From Candidatus Gastranaerophilales bacterium (GTDB taxonomy: Bacteria; Cyanobacteriota; Vampirovibrionia; Gastranaerophilales; Gastranaerophilaceae): a stretch of 48,701 nt of DNA. Each line of letters begins with the position of its first letter. Position 1 is the stretch's first letter. Location of the stretch: contig CALVAY010000013.1 in NCBI GenBank assembly GCA_944325665.1, forward strand, positions 1 to 48,701, given 5' to 3'. The translations under genes were made by a program, and so were the position numbers. The notes beneath the pieces were generated by a model. That model was given only the letters and a program-made list of their open reading frames with translations. It was not told the origin of the DNA and ran no database searches. Positions 2,459 through 22,374 of this stretch are shown here, piece by piece.

Positions 2459-5400
2459 TTAATTTCCGAAGAATCTTCTCATAATGCTATCATGAGAAAC
2501 CTTGCCAAGACCTGTGGATTTATAGAAAGTGCTTACGGTTTCATTTAACTTAATTGGCTTACCGTCTGCACGAACTAAGCTGTCTCCGACAACTGTATAT
2601 CTTATCGGATAACCGTTAGAATCAACTTCGTCTCTGAATTTTCCACTGTTTCTGTCATACACTTTTCTTTTGATGACTATATCTTTTGCACCTGGGGTAT
2701 GGAAATCATACTCGGCACCGTCTTCGCCTTTTAAGCTGATTGCCTTAACTTCTACGCTTTCTTTGTCTTTGTTAAGCGGTTCATTATAATCAGAAGTCAT
2801 GCCAACATTTGAGAATACCTGAATTACGGATGAACCTTTATCGTCATACTTCAGAAGTGCATAAATACCTTTATTTTCAGGCTGAGGAAGCGAAATAGGC
2901 GTACCGTCGGCAATTGCAGACAAACCGTATTCTTTGTAAAGATTAGCTCTTGCTTGCATTCTGTCATAATATTCTTTTATTTCAGGTTTAAATTCATCCG
3001 AATTGGGGTCAATCCATTCATGGCGAATTAAGTTTCTGTTTGCAACCGAAATATTTTTTGAGGCGTATTCGTAACCTGTTTGACCCAAATTTGTACCTGC
3101 ATAGAAGAAAGGTATGCCTGTAATTGAATTCAATACATCAGATATGCCAATCATTTTGCTTAAAGCAGGGGCCATCATTTCACGGTAAACCGCATCATTT
3201 AAATCTTTAATCTGTCTGTCGCTCAACCAGCTTTTGCCTTCTTTGCTTGCGATATATTGCGCTTGATCCAAGATGTCTTTTAAAGAGATGTCAAAAGGAT
3301 TTTGACCGAAAGATTCGGCTCTTAAGAAGTCTATGTCGGTTTTTCTTTTGAATTTACCGACAGCCAAGTCAGCAATGGCCCTGTTGATAATTTTTAAACT
3401 TTCTTTGTCATCAACTAAGACTTTTTCAAAAGTAGATTTGAACTTATCAGCCACTACAATCGCTTTTGAACTTATAGCATCATAGTTTTTATCACCTTTA
3501 CCCAAAACTCTGTCGCAAGCTTCTTTTGCGTGTTCAATGTCTTTTTGATTTGTTTTGGATGAAGAATTTATGCCAAATCTTGACAAATATGCACCCATAT
3601 CAAGTGCCAAACAATGAAGCGCACGAGGTTTATCGTGGTTATCCACAAACACATGGCTGTGAGTTAAGTATAGCATTGGACCTGATTTTAAATATTCTTG
3701 CATTTTGTGTTTAAATGCGTCCATGTTTGCATATTCGCCTGTAACATCACCGAATTCAAAGTTTTGACCAAATAAATTGGGAACAAGACCAAAGAAGGTA
3801 GAATAATTTGAACCTGTTGTTGCACCTGTTTTTTCATATAACATACGCTCTGCAACATTCGGGTCTGTGTATTTACCCCAGTCTTCTTTTCTGATTTTTT
3901 CTTCTAAATCTGAAACAGCACTTTCTGAAGCATCAGGTCCAAGAATTTGCCTTGCTTCTTTTCTGTATAAAGGAGTATTGTTATAGAACGACCACAAGTC
4001 GGTAACCTCAGCAACAACGTATGCCGAAGGGTTAATTTCTCTTACACGACTTACAAATTCGCCCCAGAATTCACATACATCATCCCAAGACTGTTCAAAT
4101 GTAGTTAAACCGTTACGGTTGCTGGTTAAATCACCAATATCTTTTGCAGCGTCAAAACGCCAGTTCAAACCGCCGCCTGATTTTTTAAGTAATAGTTCAG
4201 CTTGTTTGAAGGATTTTGGAGTGTATTTCATTACATCCAAATCAACAAGTTGGTCTGTAAGCTGCTGTTGTTGACCTTCCGTATATTCGGTGCGAGCAAG
4301 ATTTTTGCTTATTCTCTTTGCAAGTTGTTTTGCTTCGTCTTGAGGATCTTTAGTGCTTAGAACACCTGCTTCTCTTGCTGAGCGTTTTTTAACATCATCC
4401 GATACGGTTAACATACCTTTTGAGTCGATTTGTATTTTATCTTGCGGGAACATTGCTTTAAGTACCGCATAACCGATAATTTTAGGTGTATATAACTCTG
4501 CAAAGCTTTTACCGAAATCGGTAAATTTAACAGCATTATCCACAACATCGTAACCGTTTTGTTCTAAAGACAAAAGGTCGGTGATTTCACTTGAAGGCTC
4601 AATGATATTTTGCGTACTGCAAGCATCAAGCTTTCTTAGTGTTTCTATAACATAGTAGAATATTCTGTTTTTAACCTCAGGATTTTGCATGTATTTTTTA
4701 AACTGAGGATTATTTGTAATTGCTGCAAGACTTGGCGAAACATCAAGTGTTTCGTATCTGAAATCGTCAATGCACTTCTCAACAGTTTGTCTTACAGTCG
4801 CAGCAGCAGTGTTTGAGTCCAATTTTTCCTGATAAGAATAGTTTAATACGGCTTCTATATCTTCCGCACTTAAATCGTTAGCTTTAGCTATTTCTTTAAT
4901 GCCGTTAATATCGCCTCTGGAAAAATATCCTGCTAAATCTTCATAAATTGCGTCATGTGTAAACTGTGTCCAGTATTTAGCAACAGAATACAAATATTCT
5001 CTTGCCTGATCATACCCTTCAAGATCGCCTGCCGAGCTGTTCGGATTTGCAAGGTTCATTTTAACCAAGTCAACGTTACCGTCCCAAAAGTTAGCACCGC
5101 CGGATCTTCCTTTTCTTACTATGTCAAAATTTTCAAAAGAGAAGAAGGAATCTAAATTTTGCAAAATTGTTGTGCCTGAATTCCTTGGGTCTGCATCAGT
5201 AAGCATTTTGTGAGTATAACCGCTAAACTTTTTACGTACTTCTTTGTCTGAATAATCAATCTCAAAGAAGTAGGGCAAAATTGAATCCTGATGAGTTGTA
5301 ATGTCATAATGATCCTTAGGATTAGGATTTGCATAGCTTTCTATGAAATTCTTAGTATCTCTTTGCTGTTCTCTGCTTGCCAATCTGTCGTCAAAGAATT

Positions 5401-6439
5401 GAATATAGCTTGGCTTTTTAGGGTCATAATCCTTAGTGCCCAATGGGTTTATGATTTTATAACCCACATGTTCCATTACTTTAGGGCGATTCGGGTTAAG
5501 AGCGGAAACTTCATCGGGGAAAACACCCAATTTTATTCTTCCGTTGATTTTAAACCAGTGATAATAAGGGGAATTTTTTCCGTATTTTAATACGTTTTGG
5601 AATAATGGGCTTTGGATACTTTGTGAAGTAATTGCACCGTCTGCAATATAACCTTTGCCTTCTCTAAAAAGACCAACTACCGTGTCTTTAAATTTTGAAA
5701 CGGAAGGCATTTGGAAAAATTCTTCACCCCAGTATTTATGAGAAGACTTTGTATCTCTTCCCATATAAGGGTTTGTCATTATGTATCTGTACGGTTCAAT
5801 TTCATCTTTATATTTTAAAATACCGTCAATATCACCGCCCGCTTTATTAAAGTGGTTTCTTACAAAGCTTTTACGATCAATATTTGGCGCACTGTCATAA
5901 GCATCATAAAAAATGTGCAATGCAGGGCCAGTCTTGGGTGTCATACCCATATTATTTGAAAGTACCGTAAATTTTCCGTATTTAGGGTCTTCTACAACAC
6001 TTCCCGGATCGTAACGATAAGCTTGCGTTTTTAGATCATCAAAGGGGCTTATATCGCTTTCTAAATCAATTTTATTAAAAGCTTTATTTGCTTCTAATTT
6101 ATCAACCAATCTAAATCTGTACCCGATGTATTCATATTCTTTCGGGTCGCAAATAATAATATCTCTGGGATAATCGGTAAAGCCGTGTTCTCTTATTTCC
6201 TTAAAAGAATTATCATAGGTAAAGGGTTTGGTAAGCTCTGTATCAACTTCAAAGCCGCCTTTGCCGTCAGGTTTTAGGACGCAAAGCTGTAAAAGAGCGG
6301 TATATTTGCTCTTGTCATAAGGAGGAACATAGAATCTATATACATCCTGTTGATCTTTATCATAAGTCCTTTTTAAACCTTGAAAGGAGGTTTTATTTAA
6401 CTTATCGACTTTTTGTATTTCCGTTGCCGAAATTTTCAC
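2459..6439 (-). CDS. Very large GH13 (alpha-amylase family) protein with F-x-G leader
   Basis: About 1326 residues from a GTG at 6439. That start is preferred because AAGGG lies eight bases upstream and it gives the leader MKISATEI...TSFQG found on other proteins here; an in-frame TTG at 6475 would add 12 residues without a good site. GH13 signatures counted from 6475: region I-like IADGAITSQ (about 278), region II NWRFDAAKD (nucleophile Asp about 774), region III YVVAEVTDLW (acid Glu about 822) and region IV FVDNHDKPRA (Asp about 945). All three catalytic carboxylates are therefore present. The protein is two to three times the usual GH13 length; the roughly 490 residues between regions I and II look like an inserted module with no recognised match. 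Substrate and linkage cannot be told. Last gene of a four-gene minus-strand run, with its own promoter at 6502-6530. Confidence 0.8.
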   Translation of the reverse strand: MKISATEIQKVDKLNKTSFQGLKRTYDKDQQDVYRFYVPPYDKSKYTALLQLCVLKPDGKGGFEVDTELTKPFTYDNSFKEIREHGFTDYPRDIIICDPKEYEYIGYRFRLVDKLEANKAFNKIDLESDISPFDDLKTQAYRYDPGSVVEDPKYGKFTVLSNNMGMTPKTGPALHIFYDAYDSAPNIDRKSFVRNHFNKAGGDIDGILKYKDEIEPYRYIMTNPYMGRDTKSSHKYWGEEFFQMPSVSKFKDTVVGLFREGKGYIADGAITSQSIQSPLFQNVLKYGKNSPYYHWFKINGRIKLGVFPDEVSALNPNRPKVMEHVGYKIINPLGTKDYDPKKPSYIQFFDDRLASREQQRDTKNFIESYANPNPKDHYDITTHQDSILPYFFEIDYSDKEVRKKFSGYTHKMLTDADPRNSGTTILQNLDSFFSFENFDIVRKGRSGGANFWDGNVDLVKMNLANPNSSAGDLEGYDQAREYLYSVAKYWTQFTHDAIYEDLAGYFSRGDINGIKEIAKANDLSAEDIEAVLNYSYQEKLDSNTAAATVRQTVEKCIDDFRYETLDVSPSLAAITNNPQFKKYMQNPEVKNRIFYYVIETLRKLDACSTQNIIEPSSEITDLLSLEQNGYDVVDNAVKFTDFGKSFAELYTPKIIGYAVLKAMFPQDKIQIDSKGMLTVSDDVKKRSAREAGVLSTKDPQDEAKQLAKRISKNLARTEYTEGQQQQLTDQLVDLDVMKYTPKSFKQAELLLKKSGGGLNWRFDAAKDIGDLTSNRNGLTTFEQSWDDVCEFWGEFVSRVREINPSAYVVAEVTDLWSFYNNTPLYRKEARQILGPDASESAVSDLEEKIRKEDWGKYTDPNVAERMLYEKTGATTGSNYSTFFGLVPNLFGQNFEFGDVTGEYANMDAFKHKMQEYLKSGPMLYLTHSHVFVDNHDKPRALHCLALDMGAYLSRFGINSSSKTNQKDIEHAKEACDRVLGKGDKNYDAISSKAIVVADKFKSTFEKVLVDDKESLKIINRAIADLAVGKFKRKTDIDFLRAESFGQNPFDISLKDILDQAQYIASKEGKSWLSDRQIKDLNDAVYREMMAPALSKMIGISDVLNSITGIPFFYAGTNLGQTGYEYASKNISVANRNLIRHEWIDPNSDEFKPEIKEYYDRMQARANLYKEYGLSAIADGTPISLPQPENKGIYALLKYDDKGSSVIQVFSNVGMTSDYNEPLNKDKESVEVKAISLKGEDGAEYDFHTPGAKDIVIKRKVYDRNSGKFRDEVDSNGYPIRYTVVGDSLVRADGKPIKLNETVSTFYKSTGLGKVSHDSIMRRFFGN

Positions 6440-6501
6440 AATGTTTACCCTTATTATTCCCTTTAACTTTATCAAAACATCTAAATCAATAAAATTGCTT
6501 A

Positions 6502-6554: not shown

Positions 6555-8333
6555 TTAAAATTGTTGCTGCATTACATTTTCAGACTTAGAATATTTTTCT
6601 AAATCAGGTGTGTTAATCTCAAATATGTGAGCTCTTAATGGTCCCAAATCAACCGTTAATACATCATTATCTTTTTGGAAGTAACTTGGCTGAGAATATT
6701 CGGGAACCAAATTTTCTAATTTTTGTTCGGCATCAAACCCGGGAATTTGAATTTTAGCGCTTGATCTTACGTTTGCATTTCTGTTTGCAACAACAAGGAG
6801 AGTTTTACCGTCTTTGTGTCTTGCGTAAGAGATAATATCAGGGTTATTATTTTCAAGTTTTATGAAAGAACCGTGAGTTAATATATCCTTATATTCAGGT
6901 TTTACATCGCCGCTTTTAAGTGCAAGAGAAGATTTAATAAACTCTTGAATTTGCGGGAAATTACCGCCGGGTTTTCTTGAATAGTTGAAAATATCAAGTC
7001 TGCCTGTGTGAACAGTACATTCGTCATTATCAGTTTGAGTTTGTGCTACTTTAGCGTGGTCATAAGGATATAAGAAATAATCACCTGTTTGAACACCGTC
7101 AATAAAGTAAGTGTTTACCATTGGCAATGTTGACTGAATTGCAGTTGTAAACATAACCCAAGGAGCACCGCCAAAATACATCGGGCTTTGGTCGTCATGG
7201 GTTGTCATTGAACCGATTAAAGACTTAGGACCTTCCATTCTGTTAGACATGTCAATATTTTCTTTCATATATTTGAACAGGTCATCTGCCTTTGTCCATT
7301 GGTTGAAAATGTGGAATTGTCCGTAATATGAATCAAAACCGCCTCTTAATTGGTCTTCAGGTCTGTCAAAATTCATATTGAGCTGAGGTGAAGCATCTTC
7401 ATAAGTGTATGATTCTGCTAACCAGCCAAATTGAGGGTCTTTGGAGTGAGAATAAGGAATAATTACATTCCAAAATTCAATCGGTTTCGCACGGGACACA
7501 TCGGCTCTGATACCGTCAATTCCAAGCTCCATACATGCATCAACATATTTTTTGTGCATATCTAAAAGTTTCGGATTCAACTTTCTTTTTGCTTCGTCAT
7601 CCCACACTCTAAACATTCTGATGTCTTGCCAACCTTGAGGAGTTTTATCATCCCCTGTCTTTTCTTTAGCCATTAAATCAGGGTTTTTTCTTGCAAAGTC
7701 TAAACTTGCACAAGAAGGAAGGTCAAGCATAACTGAAATATTACGCTTGTGGCATTCATCGATAAACATTTTAAAGTGATCCCAAGCACTACCTTCGGTA
7801 TTAGGATCTTTTAAGTTTGGGTCAACGGCTAATTTGCCGTCTTCTTCAATAAATCTGTCAGGGGCGTACAATGAACCTGCTGTACCCATTGCAAGAGTTT
7901 TACCTGCCGGATGAATAGGCAAGATGTGCAATGTATTTATGCCCATGTCTTTAATTTCATCAAGTCTTTCAATGGCATTTATAAAATTGCCGGATTCTTC
8001 GCCAATTTGGATTAATCCGTTGCCATCAAGATCTTTTGCATTCATAGTTCTTGGAATAACACCCAAGATATTTGCTCTGTTGTTTACAAACATATCTTTT
8101 AAGTGGTTATTCCAAACACCGTTTTGCATAGCGCCGACATCTGAAATTGGCTGCATAGCATTTGGTTTCAATATTTGGCTTGATTGTTTAATTATATATT
8201 TTGATAAAAGCGGATTAAAAGGAGCTTTCTCTTCCGCACTTTGTTGTACTTCAGGTGCGCTTTGAGCTTTTGGAGCCGCTGTTTTATTTTGGTACATAAG
8301 GTAAGGGTTTTGTGAAATATTATTTAACTGCAT
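6555..8333 (-). CDS. GH13 (alpha-amylase family) glycoside hydrolase or transglycosylase
   Basis: 592 residues. After a low-complexity, Gln/Ala/Pro-rich start (about 1-45) comes a TIM barrel with region I VMLDLPSCAS (about 202), region II GIDGIRADVSRAK (nucleophile Asp about 276), region III WLAESYTY (acid Glu about 307) and region IV TTHDDQSP (Asp about 379). A C-terminal beta domain follows (HKDGKTLLVVANRN). All catalytic residues are present, so an active alpha-glucan enzyme is likely; hydrolase or transferase cannot be decided. No signal peptide, so probably cytoplasmic. AGGAGGGG lies five bases before the ATG, inside the end of the upstream membrane-protein gene, with a 14-base overlap that suggests coupled translation. 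Confidence 0.88.
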   Translation of the reverse strand: MQLNNISQNPYLMYQNKTAAPKAQSAPEVQQSAEEKAPFNPLLSKYIIKQSSQILKPNAMQPISDVGAMQNGVWNNHLKDMFVNNRANILGVIPRTMNAKDLDGNGLIQIGEESGNFINAIERLDEIKDMGINTLHILPIHPAGKTLAMGTAGSLYAPDRFIEEDGKLAVDPNLKDPNTEGSAWDHFKMFIDECHKRNISVMLDLPSCASLDFARKNPDLMAKEKTGDDKTPQGWQDIRMFRVWDDEAKRKLNPKLLDMHKKYVDACMELGIDGIRADVSRAKPIEFWNVIIPYSHSKDPQFGWLAESYTYEDASPQLNMNFDRPEDQLRGGFDSYYGQFHIFNQWTKADDLFKYMKENIDMSNRMEGPKSLIGSMTTHDDQSPMYFGGAPWVMFTTAIQSTLPMVNTYFIDGVQTGDYFLYPYDHAKVAQTQTDNDECTVHTGRLDIFNYSRKPGGNFPQIQEFIKSSLALKSGDVKPEYKDILTHGSFIKLENNNPDIISYARHKDGKTLLVVANRNANVRSSAKIQIPGFDAEQKLENLVPEYSQPSYFQKDNDVLTVDLGPLRAHIFEINTPDLEKYSKSENVMQQQF

Positions 8334-10809
8334 TGTCCCCTCCTTTTTGCTCTTTATGTTTTAGGTATAAATGTTCGTTTTTGGCTTTTCCAAAGAACAT
8401 TTGAGACAGCAAAGTAATGCCGACCACACCGATTGCAAATCCGCCGAACATTCTCATCCAGTGTCTGTCATTGAATTTTTGGCTTGCTGTTTCCATAAAT
8501 AACTCGTTTAGAGATTTACCTATCATTGAATATTGAGTTTTTTGCGAAACATCTACCTTACCTTGAAGTGTATGTCCTTGTCTTGCTAAGTCAACAATCT
8601 GACTGTAAATACGGTAGATATTTTCTCTTGTTTTAAGCAATGAATCATATAATGCAGGGTTGCAATGTTTAAGTGTATCAGCATCAAGAGTTGATACAAG
8701 TTCATTTGCTTCATTTTTGTATTGACCGAACAACAATTCAAGAACTTTTGTAGAGTCAACACCGTTACCGCTTAAGTAACATTTATTAGCTATATCATTC
8801 ATTGTTGAATCATATAGAACTTTACGGCAAGTTTGAATTACATCTTTAATGGCATTTTTATCACCGCCAAGACTTTCCCATTGTTTTGCTAAAGTACCGT
8901 CAGCAATTCTCTTTTCTAAGTCAGCTGCAAGAATGTATCTGTGTCCTGTTGATTTTATACCGGCAGTTTTTTCTTCGATAAACAAATCAACAACTCTTCT
9001 GTATAATGGAGTTCTGCCTGATTTTCCGTTTTGTACACTTTGTTTTAAGAAGCCAAGCAAATTGTCATTTTCAACATCTTCAACCCCTTTGAATGCATCA
9101 TCGGCAGCCCTTCTGATTTTATCCAAAATCTTACCCAATGTTTTAGATTCAAATTTAACTTGTTTTTCACTCAAAGTTGAAATGTACTCGCCGTAACGAC
9201 CTTCATTTCCTGCAATTTTAGAAAGCGAGCTTACAAGATATTTTTGAGATTGCTCTGCTGAATTTCTTGCTTGTTTTAAATCTTTAGTTTTTGGTTTAAG
9301 TTGAGCCATAAATGCATTCAACGAATCCAAGTGGATGCCTGTATGAACAGATTCATATTTTTGTCCTACAAGTCCGTTTATAAAGTCTGAAATAACGCTC
9401 AATCTTGCAGCAATCGGTCTTGTTTGCTTTTGATAAACATCTCCGAAAGAAGCGCAGTAATCGCTGACTACTTTACCATCTATCGTACCTTCAATCTTGT
9501 AGCCTTCAATTAAGCGTGCAAATTTATCTCTTAAAGCTGCTTTAGTCATAGCGCCTTCGGTAGAATCAAGAGCTTCAAGAAGTTCGCCCAAAGGTACAAC
9601 TCTTTCGGTTTCAGGTAATTTGTCGATATGAGCAAATTTTTGACGAAGTGCCATGTAAACTTTTCTGTCAGCAGAATTATCTCTTCCCTGAAGGCTTCTT
9701 ACGATAAGTTTCTTGTCTCCTTGTTCTGCAAAAAGCTTATCCATTTCCTCAACAAGCTTACCGTAGTTAACCATGGTAGTGCCTTTTTTAGCTTCCCTTA
9801 GGTCAGAATATGTTCTCATCATATTATCTCTTATTTGTAGAGCCGTACTTCTTAGCTCAAAAATAAGATTTGAATCATCAATGTCTTTTTTATCGTTTAT
9901 TACTCTAAACGGATCCAAAATATGAGAAACGTTGTTGAAAAATACTTTATCAGGTTCTTTTGTTCTTCTTGTTGTAATAACCGCCAAATCTCTTGCCGCT
10001 TGAGAGTCAAAATTTGCATCTTTCATTTTGGCTTGAATCATGCTTGGCAATTTATCGACATCAGCGGTAATTTTGTTGTATTGATGATTAATCAAGCCTT
10101 TTGTAATGCCTCTTTCGGCAACGTTACACATCATTGAAGTTAAAAGCGGGCTGAAACCTGCCGTTAACATCCACAAAGTATTACCTTGAAGAGCAATGGT
10201 ACGCATTTTTTCTTTGATTAGCTCTTCTCTGTCTTTTACATCTTTCGGTACACCCAGTTTGTCGCCAATTTTGTTTAATTCATCATTTGACCACAAATCC
10301 CAAGGTTGATATTGGTTATCTTGGAAGAAGTATTTTTTTCTGCCTTGAGAATCGACATATTTTTGACGGAAATCAAAACCGAAACGGTGTTTCATAGGTT
10401 CAGAAATAAGAACTTTCGGCCACATAGCCATTGAAGCAAAAAATGCACCAAAGCCTAAAAATTCCATTAAACCTTTCGTACCTGTTCCACGTCTTGTGAA
10501 AAGATAAGAAGCAATGCCAAGACCGCCTAACTTCATACCAAGGTCGTTAAATCTTCCCAATTGATTATCGTTAGATTCGCCTTTAGTAAGCGCTTTGCCT
10601 AATTCAACAATGTCTTTGCCTGTATCTGCGGCAGATATGACCAATGAAGAAAGAGGGTTGCGACTTTTTAGTAAAAATCCTCTTGGAGTTTGGGGTGCAA
10701 CAGAATTAGCATTCTGAACAAAAGCTCTATAAACGTCTTGCTCTGCAATTTCTTTGCGAAGCTGTGCGTATTGATTATTTAGAAATGAGGAGTTAACGTT
10801 GTTATTCAT
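8320..10809 (-). CDS. Large membrane protein of unknown function, operon partner of GH13
   Basis: 829 residues, not recognised. Hydrophobic segments lie near 98-112 (LGGLGIASYLF), 118-135 (FGAFFASMAMWPKVL), 212-230 (LWMLTAGFSPLLTSMM) and 790-810 (FGGFAIGVVGITLLSQMFFG). The roughly 550 residues between the third and fourth are polar, helical and charge-rich. The last 20 residues are charged (KHKEQKGGDNAVK). The plan of two helices, a loop containing WDLW and NKIGDKLG, one helix, long insert, one helix repeats that of the upstream 352-residue protein, so the two are probably distant paralogues. Start and stop codons of the pair overlap as TAATG; the downstream GH13 gene overlaps its end by 14 bases. 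A role as membrane scaffold or anchor for the glucan enzymes is a guess from context. Confidence 0.75.
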   Translation of the reverse strand: MNNNVNSSFLNNQYAQLRKEIAEQDVYRAFVQNANSVAPQTPRGFLLKSRNPLSSLVISAADTGKDIVELGKALTKGESNDNQLGRFNDLGMKLGGLGIASYLFTRRGTGTKGLMEFLGFGAFFASMAMWPKVLISEPMKHRFGFDFRQKYVDSQGRKKYFFQDNQYQPWDLWSNDELNKIGDKLGVPKDVKDREELIKEKMRTIALQGNTLWMLTAGFSPLLTSMMCNVAERGITKGLINHQYNKITADVDKLPSMIQAKMKDANFDSQAARDLAVITTRRTKEPDKVFFNNVSHILDPFRVINDKKDIDDSNLIFELRSTALQIRDNMMRTYSDLREAKKGTTMVNYGKLVEEMDKLFAEQGDKKLIVRSLQGRDNSADRKVYMALRQKFAHIDKLPETERVVPLGELLEALDSTEGAMTKAALRDKFARLIEGYKIEGTIDGKVVSDYCASFGDVYQKQTRPIAARLSVISDFINGLVGQKYESVHTGIHLDSLNAFMAQLKPKTKDLKQARNSAEQSQKYLVSSLSKIAGNEGRYGEYISTLSEKQVKFESKTLGKILDKIRRAADDAFKGVEDVENDNLLGFLKQSVQNGKSGRTPLYRRVVDLFIEEKTAGIKSTGHRYILAADLEKRIADGTLAKQWESLGGDKNAIKDVIQTCRKVLYDSTMNDIANKCYLSGNGVDSTKVLELLFGQYKNEANELVSTLDADTLKHCNPALYDSLLKTRENIYRIYSQIVDLARQGHTLQGKVDVSQKTQYSMIGKSLNELFMETASQKFNDRHWMRMFGGFAIGVVGITLLSQMFFGKAKNEHLYLKHKEQKGGDNAVK

Positions 10810-11867
10810 TAGTGCACCTCATATTCTTTATTTGTGTCAATTTGTGTATCCGGCAAGTTTTTACCCACTTTAAAGCCTTTTGTAGCGTTCATAATACCTA
10901 AAATTGTTGAAGCCAAAGCACCAAAGATAAGAACTCTGCCAACAACCTTTGAGCTGCGTGTAAATCTCTTACTGTTTCCGTTGTATAAATCAACAAAACT
11001 GTCTTTTAATTTAGAGCCTAAACCGGTAGCAAAAGCTGTTACTTTCTTGGTAAATTTAGCATCTCTCGGGATTGCAATTTTTGTTTCGAAAGGTTCTTGA
11101 GCAGCAAGTGCAACACCAAGACCTGCCCAAATAAATGAGCTGATTGACTTAGCAGCATTTGATTTTACAATTAATTCTTTAACTTTGGGTTGAACTGTTT
11201 GATCAGGTGAGTTAAGAGGCTCTTTGAAGCCCATTTTTTTGGCAATTTTATCATACCAAATGTATCTGTTGCCTTGTTTTTCACCTTGTTTGTTAATTAA
11301 GTCCCAACGTGGGAAATCGGCACTTTCAAATACCCTGTGGTATTCGATTGCCGTTAAGTCTCTATCACCCTTGTGCTCAGGGAATTCGGTAACAACTTTT
11401 TGATAAGGCATCTCAAGGTCAACACCTGTTTTTAGCTCGATACCTTTATTCATTAATTTTGGGCCTAACCATTTGCCAACGGCATACATAACAACACCTG
11501 CCGCCATTTTTCTTCCCGAAATACCGGCAAAAGCTCTGTCAGGCATTCTAAAACCTTTGTTTGCAGCATTAAATAGGGCTATTAACATGCCTGAACCGAC
11601 AAGATTAGGCACAAGCCCCAAAGACAAAAATTCGTAAAAATTGGAGTTGCGAGAACCGTTCATTCCTTTAGGTGCGTAAGTAAAAACGTCTTTTACAAGT
11701 TTATCCGCAACAATTCTTGCCCCTGTGATAGGAGTTTTTTTGATAATTTGATCACTTGTACTGGATAACTCCTTGTCAGCATGCGATTTCTTGTAGAAAG
11801 CGTTTTGTGGAATTTCAATTTTACTGTTACCTGTTTGCACCTTTTTGTTAGACTCCAAAACTAACAC
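10809..11867 (-). CDS. Membrane protein of unknown function, first gene of GH13 operon
   Basis: 352 residues from a GTG at 11867; no ribosome site precedes that codon. A second in-frame GTG ten codons in (near 11840) has GGAG twelve bases upstream and is an alternative start. Four hydrophobic segments: about 82-103 (LVPNLVGSGMLIALFNAA), 115-135 (KMAAGVVMYAVGKWLGPKLM), 243-260 (SISSFIWAGLGVALAA) and 313-335 (VLIFGALASTILGIM). The loop between the second and third carries DFPRWDL and WYDKIAKKMGF, matching QPWDLW and NKIGDKLGV in the next gene. No enzyme motif is seen. It heads a run with one membrane paralogue and two GH13 proteins, with end-to-start contacts that suggest one mRNA. Function unknown. 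Confidence 0.72.
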   Translation of the reverse strand: MLVLESNKKVQTGNSKIEIPQNAFYKKSHADKELSSTSDQIIKKTPITGARIVADKLVKDVFTYAPKGMNGSRNSNFYEFLSLGLVPNLVGSGMLIALFNAANKGFRMPDRAFAGISGRKMAAGVVMYAVGKWLGPKLMNKGIELKTGVDLEMPYQKVVTEFPEHKGDRDLTAIEYHRVFESADFPRWDLINKQGEKQGNRYIWYDKIAKKMGFKEPLNSPDQTVQPKVKELIVKSNAAKSISSFIWAGLGVALAAQEPFETKIAIPRDAKFTKKVTAFATGLGSKLKDSFVDLYNGNSKRFTRSSKVVGRVLIFGALASTILGIMNATKGFKVGKNLPDTQIDTNKEYEVH

Positions 11868-11995
11868 ACAAATAAATGAAAAAGTCTAAAAGAAAATATT
11901 TGATATATTCTTAAAGAAAATTTACATACTTTAACAAATAAATTTATATTTATTGCTAACAACATCAAATTGTAGATAATTGAACAAAATTTATG

Positions 11996-12001
11996 TAAAA
12001 T
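11996..12001 (+). promoter_or_regulatory. -10 box placed for a leaderless mRNA
   Basis: TAAAAT, then six bases, then the ATG at 12008. No Shine-Dalgarno sequence lies upstream. Transcription is expected to start at or within a base of the A of the ATG. Confidence 0.5.
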
Positions 12002-12007
12002 AAATAT

Positions 12008-14353
12008 ATGGACACATTTAATCTTCAATTTAGTAATGAGATTATAAATAAAATAATAAATTTTTACAACTCGACAAATGAGCTACTACTTCTGTGTGGT
12101 TTTTCAGGTTGCTCAAAAAGTGAAATTTTAAACAAATCTCTTGAAAATTTGGACGAAAATACGCTTGTATTCAAGCATTTATGTTTTGAGCACACTACAA
12201 TTGACGACTTTTTACTCAACTTTTACGACTCTTTTCGAAAATTTTCACTTGAAAGAAAAGTAAGCCTTAAAAAGAGCATGGGCGAAACTTTTGCAAATAA
12301 AGTCAGCTTTTATTTTAAAAATATAGATAAAAAATGTGTTATTGTGGTTGACAATTACGAGCTTGTATCGGACAACATAGAAATTTTAAACCTTTTGGCT
12401 CACATCGCAAGCTTTGAAAATACAAAACTTGTGCTTGTTTCAACAGAAAAAAACATAGACTTTTTCATTCGTCAAAATTTATCTAATGAAATAATCGAAA
12501 TTCAACCAAACAGCTACGAAGATTTTTGCTCAAAAGTTAACCTTGAGATTATCGACGCCGATGAAAATACCCTAAAAGAGCTTTACGAAGTTACACAAGG
12601 GCATGAACTGTATCTCAGGATGTTATTAAGATACGCAAAAACAACGGGCGTGAGCCTTTTTGACTTTCTTGAAGAATTTAAAAAAAGAAAGATGGAATTT
12701 GGCGATTTCATTATCTCAAAAGTAATTTCCCTTGTCCCGAGCGCATATTTTAGTTTCTTGAAAAATTTATGCGTTTACAACCATGCCATAAGTATCGATT
12801 TTATAAGAAACTATTCGCTTGGCGATGTTTCTCAAATTGAATACCTTGAAAAAAATCTTTTAATTTCAAAAGTTGATAATGAAATAATTCTGAAGAAATT
12901 TTTCAAACAACATTTTATAAACACTCTATCCGTACAGGAAAAATTTAAAATCTATAACAAGCTTATTGAAATATATGAAGAAGAGCTTTCAAAAAGCCCT
13001 AAGGACAGACTTTTGAGATTATCTCGAGAAAGTATTCGAAAACAAATCGAAATGTTTGAAAGAAATATCCCGAAAATAAAAAATCAAACCGTAATCGGGC
13101 AAAATAACTTCTCTTACATCTCGCTTGCTCAAGGAAGCTCAAATCCTTGGTTTGACAAAAAAGAAACGGACAGAAAAAAACGCTTTTTGGAAAAGAAAAA
13201 AGAATTTTCAAAAGAAGAAAAGGTAAATTTCATAAGCGAAGAAGACCAATTAATGCTTAAGGAATTCAGACGAAGAAAATTTGAAAGCGAAGCTAAAAAA
13301 CAGCAGGAAAACAAAGAATTTGGCTTTATAGAAAACCTTAAGTTGGCTTATGAATATGAAAGAGATTACAAATACCCTCAAGCGCTTGAACTTTTGGCAA
13401 AATTAAAACCTCAAGCACCTGATGATATTGTTAAAACAGATATTTTAGAACATCTTGCCCACATAAGCGAAAAATTAAACAACTTTGAAATTGCGCTTGA
13501 ATACTATACTCAAATGGGCAGCTTGTGCATTATAAATAAAGAATTTGAAAAATATTACGAAGTCATTCTTCAAATGGCAAATTTATACAAACATTTGTAC
13601 AGATTTCAAAGTGCAAAAGAAGAATATCTGAAAATAATTAACGCAAAAAATCCTCTCAAGCTTTCGACAAAAACCTCTGCCTATCTTGGCTTAGGGGATA
13701 TTTTTGAAAGCGAAAACAATATTGAAGAGGCTCTAAAATACTACACGCTTGCAAAAGAGTTAATACCGGATGATGATGTTGTTCAAAGCTGTGAAGTAAG
13801 CTTTAAAACTGCGGTTTTATACGACGATATGCAAGATTTTGAACATGCAATCGAATTTTATCAAAAAAACATTGAAACAAGTCAAAATTCAAAAGAAAAT
13901 AAATACCTTTCACAAAGCTATGTTAACCTTGGTTTAATATACTCTTACGAAGGTGATTTTGAAAATGCCGCAAAATATCTTAAACTGGCATACGACAAAG
14001 ATTTAGAACAAAAAAATCTTACAGGGGTATATTTTAGTGCAAGAGAACTTTCAAAACTGTATGAAGGCGACAACATCGAGCTTGCAATTGAATATTTAAA
14101 AGAAGCCCTAAATTGTGCCAAAGAAATGCAAGACGGTTTTAAACTTGCCTACGCATATTTAGAACTTGGAGATTTATACTATAATTTCTCTCAAAATGAC
14201 GCAGCGCTTGAGTGTTACTTTGAAGCAAGGCAGGCGCTTGGCGAAAATATTCTTGATGAAAACAAAGAAATTATCGAGCGAAGAATTAAAGATATGAAAA
14301 TAAAAATGTTTGAAGAAAATTTCAGAAAAATTGAGGAAAGATATGTTCAGTAA
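12008..14353 (+). CDS. STAND-like P-loop NTPase with TPR C-terminus
   Basis: 781 residues. Residues 1-330 look like an AAA/STAND NTPase: a Walker A-like GFSGCSKSE (about 32-40; Cys-Ser in place of the usual Gly) and a Walker B-like CVIVVDNYE (about 115). A charged linker (about 370-440) leads to a run of tetratricopeptide-type helical pairs (about 440-765; for example YPQALELLAKLKP, EEALKYYTLAKEL, ENAAKYLKLAYDK). Such proteins usually act as nucleotide-dependent switches with a TPR protein-binding platform; the partner is unknown. No effector domain precedes the NTPase, so a defence role is not supported. The start overlaps no ribosome site and sits six bases after a -10 box. It overlaps rsmG by 11 bases. 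Confidence 0.75.
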   Translation: MDTFNLQFSNEIINKIINFYNSTNELLLLCGFSGCSKSEILNKSLENLDENTLVFKHLCFEHTTIDDFLLNFYDSFRKFSLERKVSLKKSMGETFANKVSFYFKNIDKKCVIVVDNYELVSDNIEILNLLAHIASFENTKLVLVSTEKNIDFFIRQNLSNEIIEIQPNSYEDFCSKVNLEIIDADENTLKELYEVTQGHELYLRMLLRYAKTTGVSLFDFLEEFKKRKMEFGDFIISKVISLVPSAYFSFLKNLCVYNHAISIDFIRNYSLGDVSQIEYLEKNLLISKVDNEIILKKFFKQHFINTLSVQEKFKIYNKLIEIYEEELSKSPKDRLLRLSRESIRKQIEMFERNIPKIKNQTVIGQNNFSYISLAQGSSNPWFDKKETDRKKRFLEKKKEFSKEEKVNFISEEDQLMLKEFRRRKFESEAKKQQENKEFGFIENLKLAYEYERDYKYPQALELLAKLKPQAPDDIVKTDILEHLAHISEKLNNFEIALEYYTQMGSLCIINKEFEKYYEVILQMANLYKHLYRFQSAKEEYLKIINAKNPLKLSTKTSAYLGLGDIFESENNIEEALKYYTLAKELIPDDDVVQSCEVSFKTAVLYDDMQDFEHAIEFYQKNIETSQNSKENKYLSQSYVNLGLIYSYEGDFENAAKYLKLAYDKDLEQKNLTGVYFSARELSKLYEGDNIELAIEYLKEALNCAKEMQDGFKLAYAYLELGDLYYNFSQNDAALECYFEARQALGENILDENKEIIERRIKDMKIKMFEENFRKIEERYVQ

Positions 14354-19014: not shown

Positions 19015-20859
19015 TTAATGACCTGCAACGAAAATGTTACCGCGAACGCTTTGTACATCGTATTTTTCGCTGAAAGAATCAAGAGCTTCTCTTGCACGAG
19101 GAGAATCATATACAATACCTGTTTCAAGGTCTGTATTTTTTGCGAAATCTTCCAATACAAACTCGGGCATACCGTAGTATTTGTTGTCAGGTGTTGTACC
19201 GTGCAATCTAACTTCGTTTGCAACGTCTTTGATTAATTTCAAGTATGCTTCTGCTGTACCGATATCATCCCATACGGCAGGTTTTCCGCCTTTTGCTTCA
19301 AGAGGTACTGTATAGACTTTCATTTTTCTGCCGTTTTCATCAAGCAATTTACCTTCATTTGCAAGTTGAACTATCTTAGGCATAACGTTTCCGCCTAAAC
19401 CTGTATCTTCAGGTGTTAAGATACCTTGAGCCATAAGAACTTTTTGTGCTTGTTTAGATAAGAAATACAAACCGGGGTTAGCTAAGAATCTGCTTTCATC
19501 AGAAGGATCAAGGGCAGTTTGAACTTTTCTGAATTCATCCATAGCTTTGTCATAGTCGCCGCGTTGAGTAAAGTCGTTAGGCATTGGAGCATCTGAAGTA
19601 TATTTTGGTTTTTCCAAGAATTCTCTGATTTGAAGATTGCCTTCGTCGTCTTGTTTAATACCCAACAAACCGAAAGATTTAGCTCTTTCAGGGCTTACAG
19701 GATAGTAAGGAATAACAAGAGCTGCATCAGGCAATGTTTTTAGTGCGTTATAAACACGGCTTACATCTGCGTTTGTGAAAATATCAGCGTTTAAGATGAT
19801 AGAATCACGGTCGTTTCTTACTAAATCACGTTTCAAACCTTCGCTTATTGCGCCGCCGTCTGTTTTATATCTTGAAACATAGTAAACGCCGTCGCCTTCA
19901 GGGATTTCATGGTTTTGGCTTAGGTAGATAACATCATCAGATTCATCGCCTCTCAAAACGCCTGCTGAAGCAGCAAGGTTAAGAGTTGTACCGATAATTC
20001 TGTATCTGTCATCTGTCGGAAGTTTACCTGACGGTTTATTTTCATGTTCTCTTGTAATGTTGAAAAATCTTTCGCCGAAACCGCCTGCGGGGATAATAAC
20101 TGTCGGGTCATTTGCTTCAACAACATCAGCATAGTCGCCTCTGATTGCTTCTCTTTGAAGACCTGAAGCCATATATGAATCAACAGCGTTAATTGTTCTG
20201 GGTTCTTTGTTTAAAGTTGTGATAACTGTTCTACCTGTGAATGAAATATCTTTATGGCCTTGACCTGGTGTCGGTTCGTATGAGCCGGGCATTTTAAATT
20301 CAAAACCATCACCAACAAGTTCTGAACCTGCAAACATTTTAATAGCTTTACCGTTTAAAGATTCATCTTTCACGGTAATTTCAGGCATAAATTTACCTTG
20401 TTTGTATGTAACAACAGGCATTTCTGCTCTACCGCGTTCTACACGACCAACAAAGATTGTGTTTCCTTTGTCGTTTGTTATGGTAAATTTATCTCTGTCG
20501 CCTTCAATTTCTTTTGTAACGTTCAAGCCGGCAGCGTTCAATTTTTCTGAACCTTGAGGCATTTTCTTTAAAGGTAAGTCAATATCTTCAGTAAGTGATA
20601 GTAAATTTTGAATTCTTATTTCTTTAGGTGTAATAATTGATTTTTCCAAATCACTTAATTCAACATTGCCTGCAAAATTAACTGTTTTTGCAGTTTGGAT
20701 ACCGTTTAGCGCTTGATAAGCACTTGCTAATTTTGCAGCTTGAGTTTTTGAACCTTCAAAATTAACATTTGATTGAGCTTTAATCGGCATTGATGTACCG
20801 TTTGTTTTTTGTGCCTGATTTTTAACATTTACAGGGCTTAGAGTTACTTTTTGTATCAT
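19015..20859 (-). CDS. Sugar-1-phosphate nucleotidyltransferase (GlgC-like) with long N-terminal extension
   Basis: 614 residues. The C-terminal part (about 250-560) is a nucleotidyltransferase of the ADP-glucose/mannose-1-P type: VIIPAGGFGERF (about 254-265, a variant of the GGxGTRL nucleotide loop), LNADIF (about 355), FLEKPKY, NPGLYFLSKQ and WDDIGTAEAYL (about 530). The first 240 residues are extra. They carry two F-x-G motifs (NVNFEGSK near 33 and TVNFAGN near 60) and a beta-rich region with no family I recognise. With the neighbouring GH13 and GH57 genes a role in glycogen-like polymer synthesis is likely but the nucleotide and sugar are unproven. AAAGGAAA precedes the ATG; a strong terminator follows. 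Confidence 0.82.
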   Translation of the reverse strand: MIQKVTLSPVNVKNQAQKTNGTSMPIKAQSNVNFEGSKTQAAKLASAYQALNGIQTAKTVNFAGNVELSDLEKSIITPKEIRIQNLLSLTEDIDLPLKKMPQGSEKLNAAGLNVTKEIEGDRDKFTITNDKGNTIFVGRVERGRAEMPVVTYKQGKFMPEITVKDESLNGKAIKMFAGSELVGDGFEFKMPGSYEPTPGQGHKDISFTGRTVITTLNKEPRTINAVDSYMASGLQREAIRGDYADVVEANDPTVIIPAGGFGERFFNITREHENKPSGKLPTDDRYRIIGTTLNLAASAGVLRGDESDDVIYLSQNHEIPEGDGVYYVSRYKTDGGAISEGLKRDLVRNDRDSIILNADIFTNADVSRVYNALKTLPDAALVIPYYPVSPERAKSFGLLGIKQDDEGNLQIREFLEKPKYTSDAPMPNDFTQRGDYDKAMDEFRKVQTALDPSDESRFLANPGLYFLSKQAQKVLMAQGILTPEDTGLGGNVMPKIVQLANEGKLLDENGRKMKVYTVPLEAKGGKPAVWDDIGTAEAYLKLIKDVANEVRLHGTTPDNKYYGMPEFVLEDFAKNTDLETGIVYDSPRAREALDSFSEKYDVQSVRGNIFVAGH

Positions 20860-20999
20860 TGGGGATTTCCTTTCGCTACCCTCTCACACTAACTAACAAC
20901 AATTTTTATTTACTTGCGTCCTAAGACGCGCATGCGTTTAACAACCGTAAATTAATTTTTTTTTGCTTTTTTGTTTTTTATTTACAATTCTTTACAAAA
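20860..20999 (-). promoter_or_regulatory. Leader region of the nucleotidyltransferase gene, with a small hairpin
   Basis: 140-base gap between two minus-strand genes. It is AT-rich with one GC-rich inverted repeat, GCGTC-ctaa-GACGC (about 20916-20929), followed on the minus strand by no T-run, so not a terminator. It may be an operator or leader stem; no promoter pair is clear. Confidence 0.3.
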
Positions 21000-21665
21000 T
21001 TATTCAACAACACCCGTACTTAGGACTTTTTTCAATTCGCTCTTAATTATTTCATGAATTTCCATTTTGTCCTTCATACCGTCAATTTCAATAAATCCAT
21101 ATTCTTTTTGAAGTTTTTTATACTCTTCAAGACATCTTTTTTGATAAATTTCAAAACTCTTGTAAATATCCGTCGAAAGACCTATATCTCTGCCTGACTC
21201 AAAATAATCAAGCCCGCCTGAGGCTATAAGTCTTTTAATTAACTTATCGGGCGGCATTTTAAGGTAGAAAACCAAATCCGGCTCTGGGGCAAATTCGTAT
21301 AATTTTTTAACCCAGTTAATATCGTGTCCTCGAACCGAATCTCGAACATAGGCAGTATAGACATATCTGTCTAAAAGCACCACAAAACCTGCCTTTAGAG
21401 CAGGGATTATGACATTTTCCAATCTGTCGGCATAATCTGCCGCATAAAGAAGGGAAAAAGTCGTTGTATTTAACAAATTTTTCTCTTTTGCCTCGTTAAT
21501 TAAACCTGAAATAAGCCTTGAGGTTTTCCACTCTGACACAACGCAGCCAAAGCATTCGCCCTGTACAAAGTCTTTTAGCATATTTACCTGTGTAGATTTT
21601 CCTGCACCGTCCGTGCCTTCAATTACAACCAAAAGCCCGTCATAGCCGTGTTTTTTATATGCCAT
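21000..21665 (-). CDS. Thymidylate-kinase-like P-loop kinase (second of tandem pair)
   Basis: About 221 residues from the ATG at 21665 (MAYKKHG), which has GAGG seven bases upstream inside the preceding gene; a start five codons earlier is possible. P-loop VIEGTDGAGKSTQ (about 14-26), Tmk-type DRYVYTAYVRD (about 115-125) and a lid region GLDYFESGRDIGLS. The fold and motif order are those of dTMP kinase, but the usual AYQ after the DR motif is replaced by a T-A-x-x-R-D pattern, so the true phosphate acceptor is uncertain. It overlaps its upstream paralogue by 11 bases; the two are surely co-translated. Confidence 0.8.
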   Translation of the reverse strand: MAYKKHGYDGLLVVIEGTDGAGKSTQVNMLKDFVQGECFGCVVSEWKTSRLISGLINEAKEKNLLNTTTFSLLYAADYADRLENVIIPALKAGFVVLLDRYVYTAYVRDSVRGHDINWVKKLYEFAPEPDLVFYLKMPPDKLIKRLIASGGLDYFESGRDIGLSTDIYKSFEIYQKRCLEEYKKLQKEYGFIEIDGMKDKMEIHEIIKSELKKVLSTGVVE

Positions 21666-22374
21666 TTTGTGCCTCATCAATTTCTATACCGCGTTTTTTC
21701 AAAACATCGGTTACAATTTTTCTGAAATATTCCTGTTTTTTATGAATAGACTCGGTCGCGTCAATTTTTACAAGATTATACTCATCAACCATATTGTTAT
21801 ACTGCTCAATTACGCGGTTTTGAAACAGTACATAACTTTTGTAAGGGTTATTTGACAGTTTTAAATCCATACCCGCTTCGTAAAATTTCGGCTGACGGTT
21901 TGTGCAAATTCTCTCCAGCGACAACTTTGCACTTACATCAAAATAAACTGCCAAATCGGGTTTAATTGCAAAACCGTACATATTTCTAACCCACTTTGGA
22001 TCAACCTCACGAGCAACATCACGAGCAAAAGCGGTATAGACATATCTGTCCGCAAGGACTATAAAACCGGCTTTAAGAGCAGGAATGATAGTTCTTTCCA
22101 ACCTGTCGGCAAAGTCAACAGCATGCAAAAGAGAAAAAGTTCTGCCCGATAAAAGATTTTTCTTTTTGGCACGTTTTGTGGTTTGCGAAATCAACTCCGA
22201 GGAATTCCAAGTTGTCAAAATAACATCTAACTTTTTAGATTTTAGCCAACTGTACAATAAGTCAAGCTGGGTACTTTTACCCGAACCGTCAATTCCTTCA
22301 ACACAAATCAGCACGCCTTGCAGTTTATGGTCTTTTGAAAATCTTAACATTTTCTGCCTTGTTTTTTTTGTCAT
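21655..22374 (-). CDS. Thymidylate-kinase-like P-loop kinase (first of tandem pair)
   Basis: 239 residues. P-loop CVEGIDGSGKSTQ (about 22-34), DRYVYTAFARD (about 123-133), and a lid with RQPKFYEAGMDLKLSNNPY. It shares the whole domain with the next gene, including the DRYVYTA-x-x-RD motif and the Y-F/E-x-G-x-D-x-x-LS lid, so the pair arose by duplication. Canonical dTMP kinase lies at about 205-215 residues. Both copies keep the P-loop lysine and the DR pair, so both may be active, or they may form a heterodimer. Whether either is the cell's Tmk cannot be decided here. Confidence 0.8.
   Translation of the reverse strand: MTKKTRQKMLRFSKDHKLQGVLICVEGIDGSGKSTQLDLLYSWLKSKKLDVILTTWNSSELISQTTKRAKKKNLLSGRTFSLLHAVDFADRLERTIIPALKAGFIVLADRYVYTAFARDVAREVDPKWVRNMYGFAIKPDLAVYFDVSAKLSLERICTNRQPKFYEAGMDLKLSNNPYKSYVLFQNRVIEQYNNMVDEYNLVKIDATESIHKKQEYFRKIVTDVLKKRGIEIDEAQNGI

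Follow-up and report, generated by a model that had tools for sequence, protein, structure and literature searches.

Related Systems

The best-described relatives of the protein considered here are the ADP-glucose pyrophosphorylases (GlgC or AGPase; TIGR02091) of E. coli, A. tumefaciens and plants, together with the sugar nucleotidyltransferases of the RmlA and GalU kinds. With GlgC the protein shares the nucleotidyltransferase (NTase) fold and the KP, D, EKP and WxDxG stations, but it carries 245 extra N-terminal residues, has no C-terminal beta-helix and falls on the other side of a branch in the tree. The RmlA and GalU enzymes have a like fold, but their structural ranks are lower and their HMM scores weak. 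Two further precedents bear on the first part of the extension, referred to below as the leader. Chloroplast and microcompartment proteins have transit or encapsulation peptides, variable N-terminal segments borne by unrelated enzymes. The leader, too, is a variable N-terminal segment common to unrelated enzymes, but its hallmark is a motif like [VI]-[NS]-F-x-[GS], unlike the amphipathic helix of those peptides. In Chlamydia trachomatis, GlgA, GlgB, GlgX, GlgP and phosphoglucomutase work outside the cytosol of the bacterium; in the parts of that account used here, no common leader is described and GlgC was not found secreted (PMC11046441).

The organism belongs to the Gastranaerophilales, non-photosynthetic gut relatives of cyanobacteria, and Gastranaerophilus is credited with glycogen storage in the portion of the source drawn upon (PMC5877343). 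Among open-licence PMC papers, screened by title or start of abstract, no description of the motif or of the protein family was found.

The Gene and Its Conservation

The gene lies in a window of 48,701 nucleotides, the whole stretch of DNA that was analysed, which is contig C13 of a 1.65 Mb genome in 30 contigs (97% complete). Its open reading frame (19015..20859, minus strand, as are all features of the gene given below) starts with ATG and encodes a protein of 614 aa, P0001; a likely ribosome-binding site, AAAGGA (20868..20873), lies 8 nt upstream of the ATG. The frame has 22 relatives in GTDB, with 54-84% identity over the best segment, and 16 of these carry names of the Gastranaerophilales or its genera. 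Twenty of the 22 are intact over their length; one (L011) runs off its contig, and in the RGIG2002 relative (L023:4001-5831) the frame is split into ORFs of 397 and 175 aa, either truly broken or an assembly error. Comparison with nine relatives by the Nei-Gojobori method, in which dS exceeded 1 in many pairs, gave dN/dS values of 0.05-0.14 for the nucleotidyltransferase part in eight of nine pairs (the ninth was saturated), 0.08-0.33 for the N-domain and 0.22-0.72 for the leader. The reading frame is real, and its codons are under purifying selection.

No conserved operon was seen when ten neighbours were scanned in other clades; those with a family were housekeeping genes, namely RNA polymerase beta, DapB, FBP aldolase, a Na/H exchanger, a sensor kinase, an AMP-binding protein, SecD and DUF561. 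A tandem pair of P-loop kinase-like genes (21000-22374 of the window; thymidylate-kinase-like by eye) is kept in the syntenic relatives L002-L010. A defence-system reading of P0001 was dropped, PADLOC having given no match for P0001, P0002, P0004 and three related proteins.

The Catalytic Domain

A 23-row alignment and two AlphaFold2 models, one of the whole protein (mean pLDDT 69.7, a fair value, with residues 260-287 below 50) and one of residues 66-250, divide P0001 into four parts: a leader (residues 1-70; 20650..20859), a beta-rich N-domain (71-245; 20125..20649), a nucleotidyltransferase domain (246-545; 19225..20124) and a C-terminal tail (546-614; 19015..19224). This is a new architecture of a known enzyme kind. 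The Pfam NTP_transferase family (PF00483) matched residues 255-548 with 48-50.1 bits, above the gathering cut-off of 21.2, and since the match begins at residue 255, some 250 residues before it are left without a Pfam match. The initial annotation, which had proposed a GlgC-type nucleotidyltransferase with a long N-terminal region, was right in this respect.

In its predicted structure, the catalytic domain is closest in fold to ADP-glucose pyrophosphorylase. AGPases headed the structural comparison with VIA (Z 17.9, 225 residues, 3.4 A), the match covering residues 242-534 at 19-25% identity, and Foldseek returned an AGPase at E 2.8e-9. The GlgC equivalog model TIGR02091 scored 39.5 bits, far from its curated cut-off of 424.9, and the other NCBIfam scores were weak (GalU 15.9, RmlA 11.6 bits). 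The family warns against inferring ordinary GlgC function from partial matches. Catalytic-type residues are kept: R264, D359 (19783..19785; aligned with the D of GlgC GGDH), E416-K417 of EKP (19609..19614; aligned with the GlgC EKP) and D532 of WDDIGT (19264..19266; aligned with GlgC WRDVG) all line up with orthodox GlgCs of the same order, and their catalytic roles are presumably those established in GlgC work. The beta-helix of GlgC is absent from the model and from the aligned tails of 12 extended NTases, its place being taken by the tail, 70 residues after the core that are modelled as helices and short strands and end in GNIFVAGH.

The nucleotide loop GGFGERF was found at residues 259-265 (20065..20085), agreeing with the earlier placement at about 258. 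The same annotation had taken ER in place of TR as a hint of a different nucleotide, and this part did not survive an alignment of 25 NTases, including six orthodox GlgCs of the order, in which the position ahead of R in GG-x-G-x-R is occupied by E, T, S or K. It is E in P0001 and also in a protein of its own genome which, from its motif, we take to be IspD-like; T in the relatives L022 and L030; S in the 565-aa, the 700-aa and two of three 900-aa relatives; and K in all six orthodox GlgCs aligned, that of the same genome included. Because the position varies freely, the ER dipeptide is uninformative on the nucleotide, and a change of nucleotide read from it was rejected.

A different substrate could still be argued on other grounds. 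P0001 may use another sugar phosphate or nucleotide and serve surface or nucleotide-sugar metabolism rather than alpha-glucan, a reading that we hold to be doubtful, though it survives best among the rivals. A search of PDB sequences places RmlA-type chains first (E 0.011), the model matches structures of GalU and GMP-PP as well, and the extended paralogues described below are diverse, one kind being fused to a kinase-like domain (by eye), which suggests several substrates. On the other side, the top ranks belong to GlgC models in NCBIfam and to AGPase structures in Foldseek and VIA. The neighbourhood counts both ways, as GlgA-like neighbours of P0001 relatives were seen in one genome only (G214), where, however, the relative stands between two leader-bearing GlgA-like genes on one strand.

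The N-Terminal Domain and a Proposed Extended Family

Structure prediction, which the initial annotation had proposed for residues 1-240, was run on the whole protein and on residues 66-250, and it shows that the description of the extension as a beta-rich region of 240 residues fits only its larger part. Residues 71-245 are conserved and beta-rich, with nine strands between residues 112 and 216 in the whole-protein model; residues 1-70 are variable, predicted to be disordered (pLDDT below 50 for 1-65) and not beta-rich. Predicted apart (model m667fc0c4ae12), residues 66-250 reached a mean pLDDT of 73.3, with 130-133, 140-162 and 173-185 below 50. No known fold was found for the N-domain: none of 438 Foldseek matches reached E 0.001 or better, a profile search of PDB sequences gave a best E of 0.2, and the best VIA likeness, to a carbohydrate-binding beta-sandwich (laminin-G / galectin-like), had a Z of 4.7 over 86 residues at 3.8 A, too low to carry weight. 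Novelty of the fold is not implied by this. An alignment of the extension with a known GlgC or GalU architecture was likewise looked for in Pfam, NCBIfam, structure and PDB profile searches and was not found.

Two F-x-G motifs had been noted, and both lie in the leader: F34-E35-G36 (VNFEG; 20752..20760), which is lost in several relatives, and F62-A63-G64 (VNFAG; 20668..20676), whose F62 is identical in 23 of 23 rows, P0001 included. To these a third can be added within the N-domain, F207-T208-G209 (ISFTG; 20233..20241), with S206, F207 and G209 invariant in the 23 rows.

Weak matches led to larger relatives. These NTases measure about 560, 565, 700 or 900 aa, and all have similar tails and F-x-[GSA] in their leaders; the 900-aa kind also has a kinase-like C-terminal domain (by eye). 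By hhalign, the 614- and 900-aa kinds have homologous N-domains (prob 95, E 3.6e-8); the relation of the 565-aa kind's N-domain is weak and uncertain (prob 15.9, E 0.0016). An extended family is proposed on the basis of an F-x-[GSA] leader, a beta-rich N-domain, an NTase core and a GN-type tail, all four of which are found in P0001. In a tree from which L084 had been dropped beforehand and in which long branches were flagged, 14 extended NTases are split from 10 others by one branch (support 84/86; 80% of bootstrap trees), giving moderate support, as far as these sequences go, to a single origin of the 14. In three genomes (L069:7165-11701, L072:9339-13963 and L076:8587-13004) a PHP-like protein with a hydrophobic segment precedes the 900-aa NTase; it scores 35.7-40.2 bits with the RNase RNM model, below the cut-off.

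The sample of the taxonomic family comprised 191 genomes. Counted by hand among the matches listed for an all-kinds profile, extended members occur in at least 44 of them (E <= 2.1e-63, frames of 564-937 aa); the weaker matches listed include six frames of 482-519 aa with E 2e-30 to 1e-39, while most of the others have about 415 aa, which agrees with orthodox GlgC. Full-length members of the P0001 kind proper are present in 16/191, and in a sample of 292 genomes of the phylum full-length relatives were found in the same order only. By sequence, P0001 stands on a new branch within the GlgC-type fold, one whose known members all come from its order. It is no stand-in for a missing GlgC, a possibility rejected on finding an orthodox GlgC in the same genome (E 1.7e-144) and GlgC matches over the cut-off in 184 of the 191.

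A Leader Shared by Different Enzymes

The leader is found on different enzymes. In the congener G160, at the same place between a DnaJ-like gene and the kinase pair (synteny checked by eye, in this genome alone), stands a different NTase of 708 aa that is 51% identical to P0001 over residues 1-71. Eight genomes of the genus are in the family sample; five have the full P0001 kind, and the three that gave leader-only matches carry another extended NTase in the same frame. As different NTases of congeners share it, the leader can be regarded as a module. F-[RG]-[SA] keeps its position in four GlgA-like orthologues whose flanks differ, and F-x-[GSA] is found in the leaders of all 14 extended NTases, against 5.5 +- 1.7 (maximum 11) in 2000 shuffles of leaders whose ends were set by eye.

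The genome of P0001 has further leader-bearing proteins: a GlgA-like protein, P0004 (PF08323 24.6 and PF00534 38.4 bits, both above the Pfam cut-offs), an isoamylase-type GH13 with CBM48 (43.0 and 36.0 bits), a GH77 4-alpha-glucanotransferase (179.5 bits), an SLT transglycosylase and several proteins without a family. Genome G263, of another genus, has a leader-bearing phosphoglucomutase and GH13 as well as P0001-type and GlgA-like proteins. A leader-bearing phosphoglucomutase was not found in the genome of P0001, where both matches start without a leader. Untagged relatives also came up in homology searches within the samples (orthodox GlgA, phosphohexomutase), and the genome of P0001 encodes an untagged GlgA of 477 aa, named by its KVGGLADVVG motif. 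With tagged and untagged forms both found, GlgC and GlgA are each represented twice in this cell, by an ordinary form and by a divergent counterpart with a leader. Leader proteins were selected by motif and by eye, annotation drew on a third of a single genome and on samples from others, and since mainly leader proteins were sent to Pfam, the list of glucan enzymes is striking but is not a measured enrichment.

Strict partnership of P0001 with a GlgA-like protein was not found in the 191 genomes: searches with a single query sequence gave a GlgA-like match in 5/16 genomes with the full P0001 type and in 38/175 of the others, no association, and G345 and G366 of the genus have P0001 and no such match. 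Some GlgA-like proteins (L068:14136-17087, 9313-12072 and L092) have a hydrophobic segment behind the leader, followed in L068 by basic residues (by eye), and this sequence feature suggests a membrane anchor.

Two more candidates lie in the window itself. One is a protein of 1338 aa (2459..6475, minus strand) with an F-x-G leader (TSFQGLK) and GH13-like motifs seen by eye only, without Pfam support. The other is an alpha-amylase-like protein of 592 aa (6555..8333, minus strand) with a leader-like start lacking F-x-G; Malt_amylase_C gave 23.1 bits, below its cut-off of 27, and TreS (32.2) and TreZ (26.1 bits) fell far below theirs. Relatives of the latter, one in the same genome (weak, E 2e-7) and one in G263 (E 8e-111), begin, by eye, with Sec-like signal peptides (L108:17278-18819 and L054:5161-7266) where the window protein has its leader-like start.

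Proteins without an obvious part in glucan metabolism bear leaders as well, some of them recognised by eye only: SLT transglycosylase, helicases, an M16 peptidase, a CheR-like protein and a GAPDH-like protein of G088 (L075:5510-6697), whose leader starts MQVQKISFTG and through which leaders may reach glycolysis too.

A Proposed Second Alpha-Glucan Set

Starting from what is observed, namely the architecture, the fold of the catalytic domain, the conserved catalytic-type residues, purifying selection and a leader common to different enzymes, we propose a reading whose chances we judge to be about even. P0001 would be a GlgC-fold enzyme making NDP-glucose and pyrophosphate from glucose-1-phosphate and an NTP; the NDP-glucose would supply the cell's own leader-bearing GlgA-like synthase and GH13 and GH77 enzymes, which would form a second alpha-glucan set beside the orthodox, untagged GlgC and GlgA. 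The F-x-G leader (residues 1-70) would be the shared address or tether that brings the enzymes of the set to one place, and the conserved N-domain may take over the partner or regulatory role of the missing beta-helix. Tethering by the extension, suggested in the initial annotation, is a fair guess for the leader, which is probably an address or a tether. Because a nucleotidyltransferase needs NTP, a site free of it (lumen or periplasm) is unlikely for P0001, which leaves the host cytosol or, on the cytosolic side, a tether or a compartment.

A bolder form of the proposal, which we put forward only tentatively, is that a lineage-specific F-x-G/S leader sends a duplicated alpha-glucan pathway (GlgC-like, GlgA-like, GH13 and GH77 enzymes, in G263 also phosphoglucomutase, and other enzymes) to a single shared site away from the general cytosol. 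The leader would then act like a transit peptide with no known import system, the candidate destinations being some compartment, a glucan granule, the envelope or the host cell, and simple gut bacteria would have spatially separated carbon stores. We judge that a genome of 1.65 Mb leaves little space for redundant glycogen-type enzymes. Should the leader be an address, it would be a protein-sorting signal for which no description was found, in an animal-gut lineage related to cyanobacteria; should it not be, the family would still show a well-studied enzyme fold in a new domain architecture. It is the leader and the proposed second set of glucan enzymes that merit an experiment.

Possible Flagellar-Type Export

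The leader proteins could instead leave the cell through a type III apparatus of the flagellar kind and reach the gut lumen or a host cell, with P0001 making NDP-glucose in the host. This we consider unlikely. Leaders are N-terminal and disordered; FHIPEP (FlhA type), the transport component for which the genomes were searched, is present in 190 of 191 family genomes; in the P0001 genome, a FliE-FliF-FliG-FliH-FlhA-like cluster (names by eye) has a leader-bearing gene (L138:8222-9727) at its upstream end; the G263 homologue of the 6555-8333 protein has the Sec-like start mentioned above; and the Chlamydia enzymes offer a precedent for the export of a glycogen pathway, although the same account, in the parts used here, also reports a study that speaks against GlgA being exported by a type III route (PMC11046441). 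According to the part of PMC4040986 that was drawn upon, six of nine Gastranaerophilales genomes have a subset of flagella genes and three of nine have complete sets. Against export, a leader-type gene adjoins the FlhA gene only in G285 among 12 FHIPEP neighbourhoods in other genomes, G106, from another family of the class, has FHIPEP and no convincing leader protein, and helicases with leaders fit export poorly. Export is supported neither by neighbourhood nor by phyletic range and is retained as a rival to the shared address or tether.

The P0001 genome has two full-length FHIPEP forms and one partial match (C1:49790-51775, C16:21558-23534 and C5:59044-60078). The lower-scoring form, in the FliE-FliF-FliG-FliH-FlhA-like cluster (by eye), is also found in genomes that, by best score, seem to lack the other form.

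Statistics of the F-x-G Motif

Counts of the motif depend on the pattern used, and the patterns were chosen after a first look at the data. The strict motif, [VIL][NST]F[KTEARQSN]G within the first 80 residues, occurred in 10/458 ORFs of the P0001 genome (the sample being the ORFs of 30% of that genome), where shuffles gave 2.1 +- 1.4 (maximum 7 of 200). It occurred in 7/355 of G263, against 1.6 +- 1.3 (maximum 6), and in 0/394 of the control G291, from another family of the phylum, against 1.1. Some strict matches in the P0001 genome are false, among them a pentapeptide-repeat protein and an FlgC-like protein. A slightly wider strict motif gave 11/518 against 2.6 (maximum 8) in that genome, 7 against 2.1 (maximum 7) in G263, 2/260 against 1.4 in G106 and 0/246 against 0.5 in G001, and the loose pattern of the same test 15 against 4.5 (maximum 13), 7 against 3.5 +- 1.8 (maximum 10) in G263 and 7 against 2.3 +- 1.6 (maximum 6) in G106, the seven G106 matches resembling, by eye, signal or membrane segments or domain interiors. 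A looser pattern tried with the control gave 10 against 2.5 in the P0001 genome, 6 against 1.9 (maximum 6) in G263 and 4 against 1.1 (maximum 4) in G291, while bare F-x-G in the first 80 residues barely exceeded shuffles (105 against 86.4 +- 7.9, maximum 105). A metallophosphatase (L046:10478-12031) was dropped as a leader protein, its motif lying inside the domain.

That the leader is no more than a fast-evolving disordered linker, in which F-x-G has no function and arose by chance or was inherited, is the least probable of the readings: a dN/dS of up to 0.72, the loss of the first F-x-G in several relatives, the showing of bare F-x-G and the poor separation given by looser patterns in G291, G263 and G106 speak for it, but they are opposed by the excess of the strict motif in the first 80 residues in the P0001 genome and G263, by its absence from the control and by the constancy of F62. 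Elsewhere in the window (42632-45298), a Hel308-like helicase in a bacterium (NCBIfam, below the cut-off) has a leader-like N-terminus by eye.
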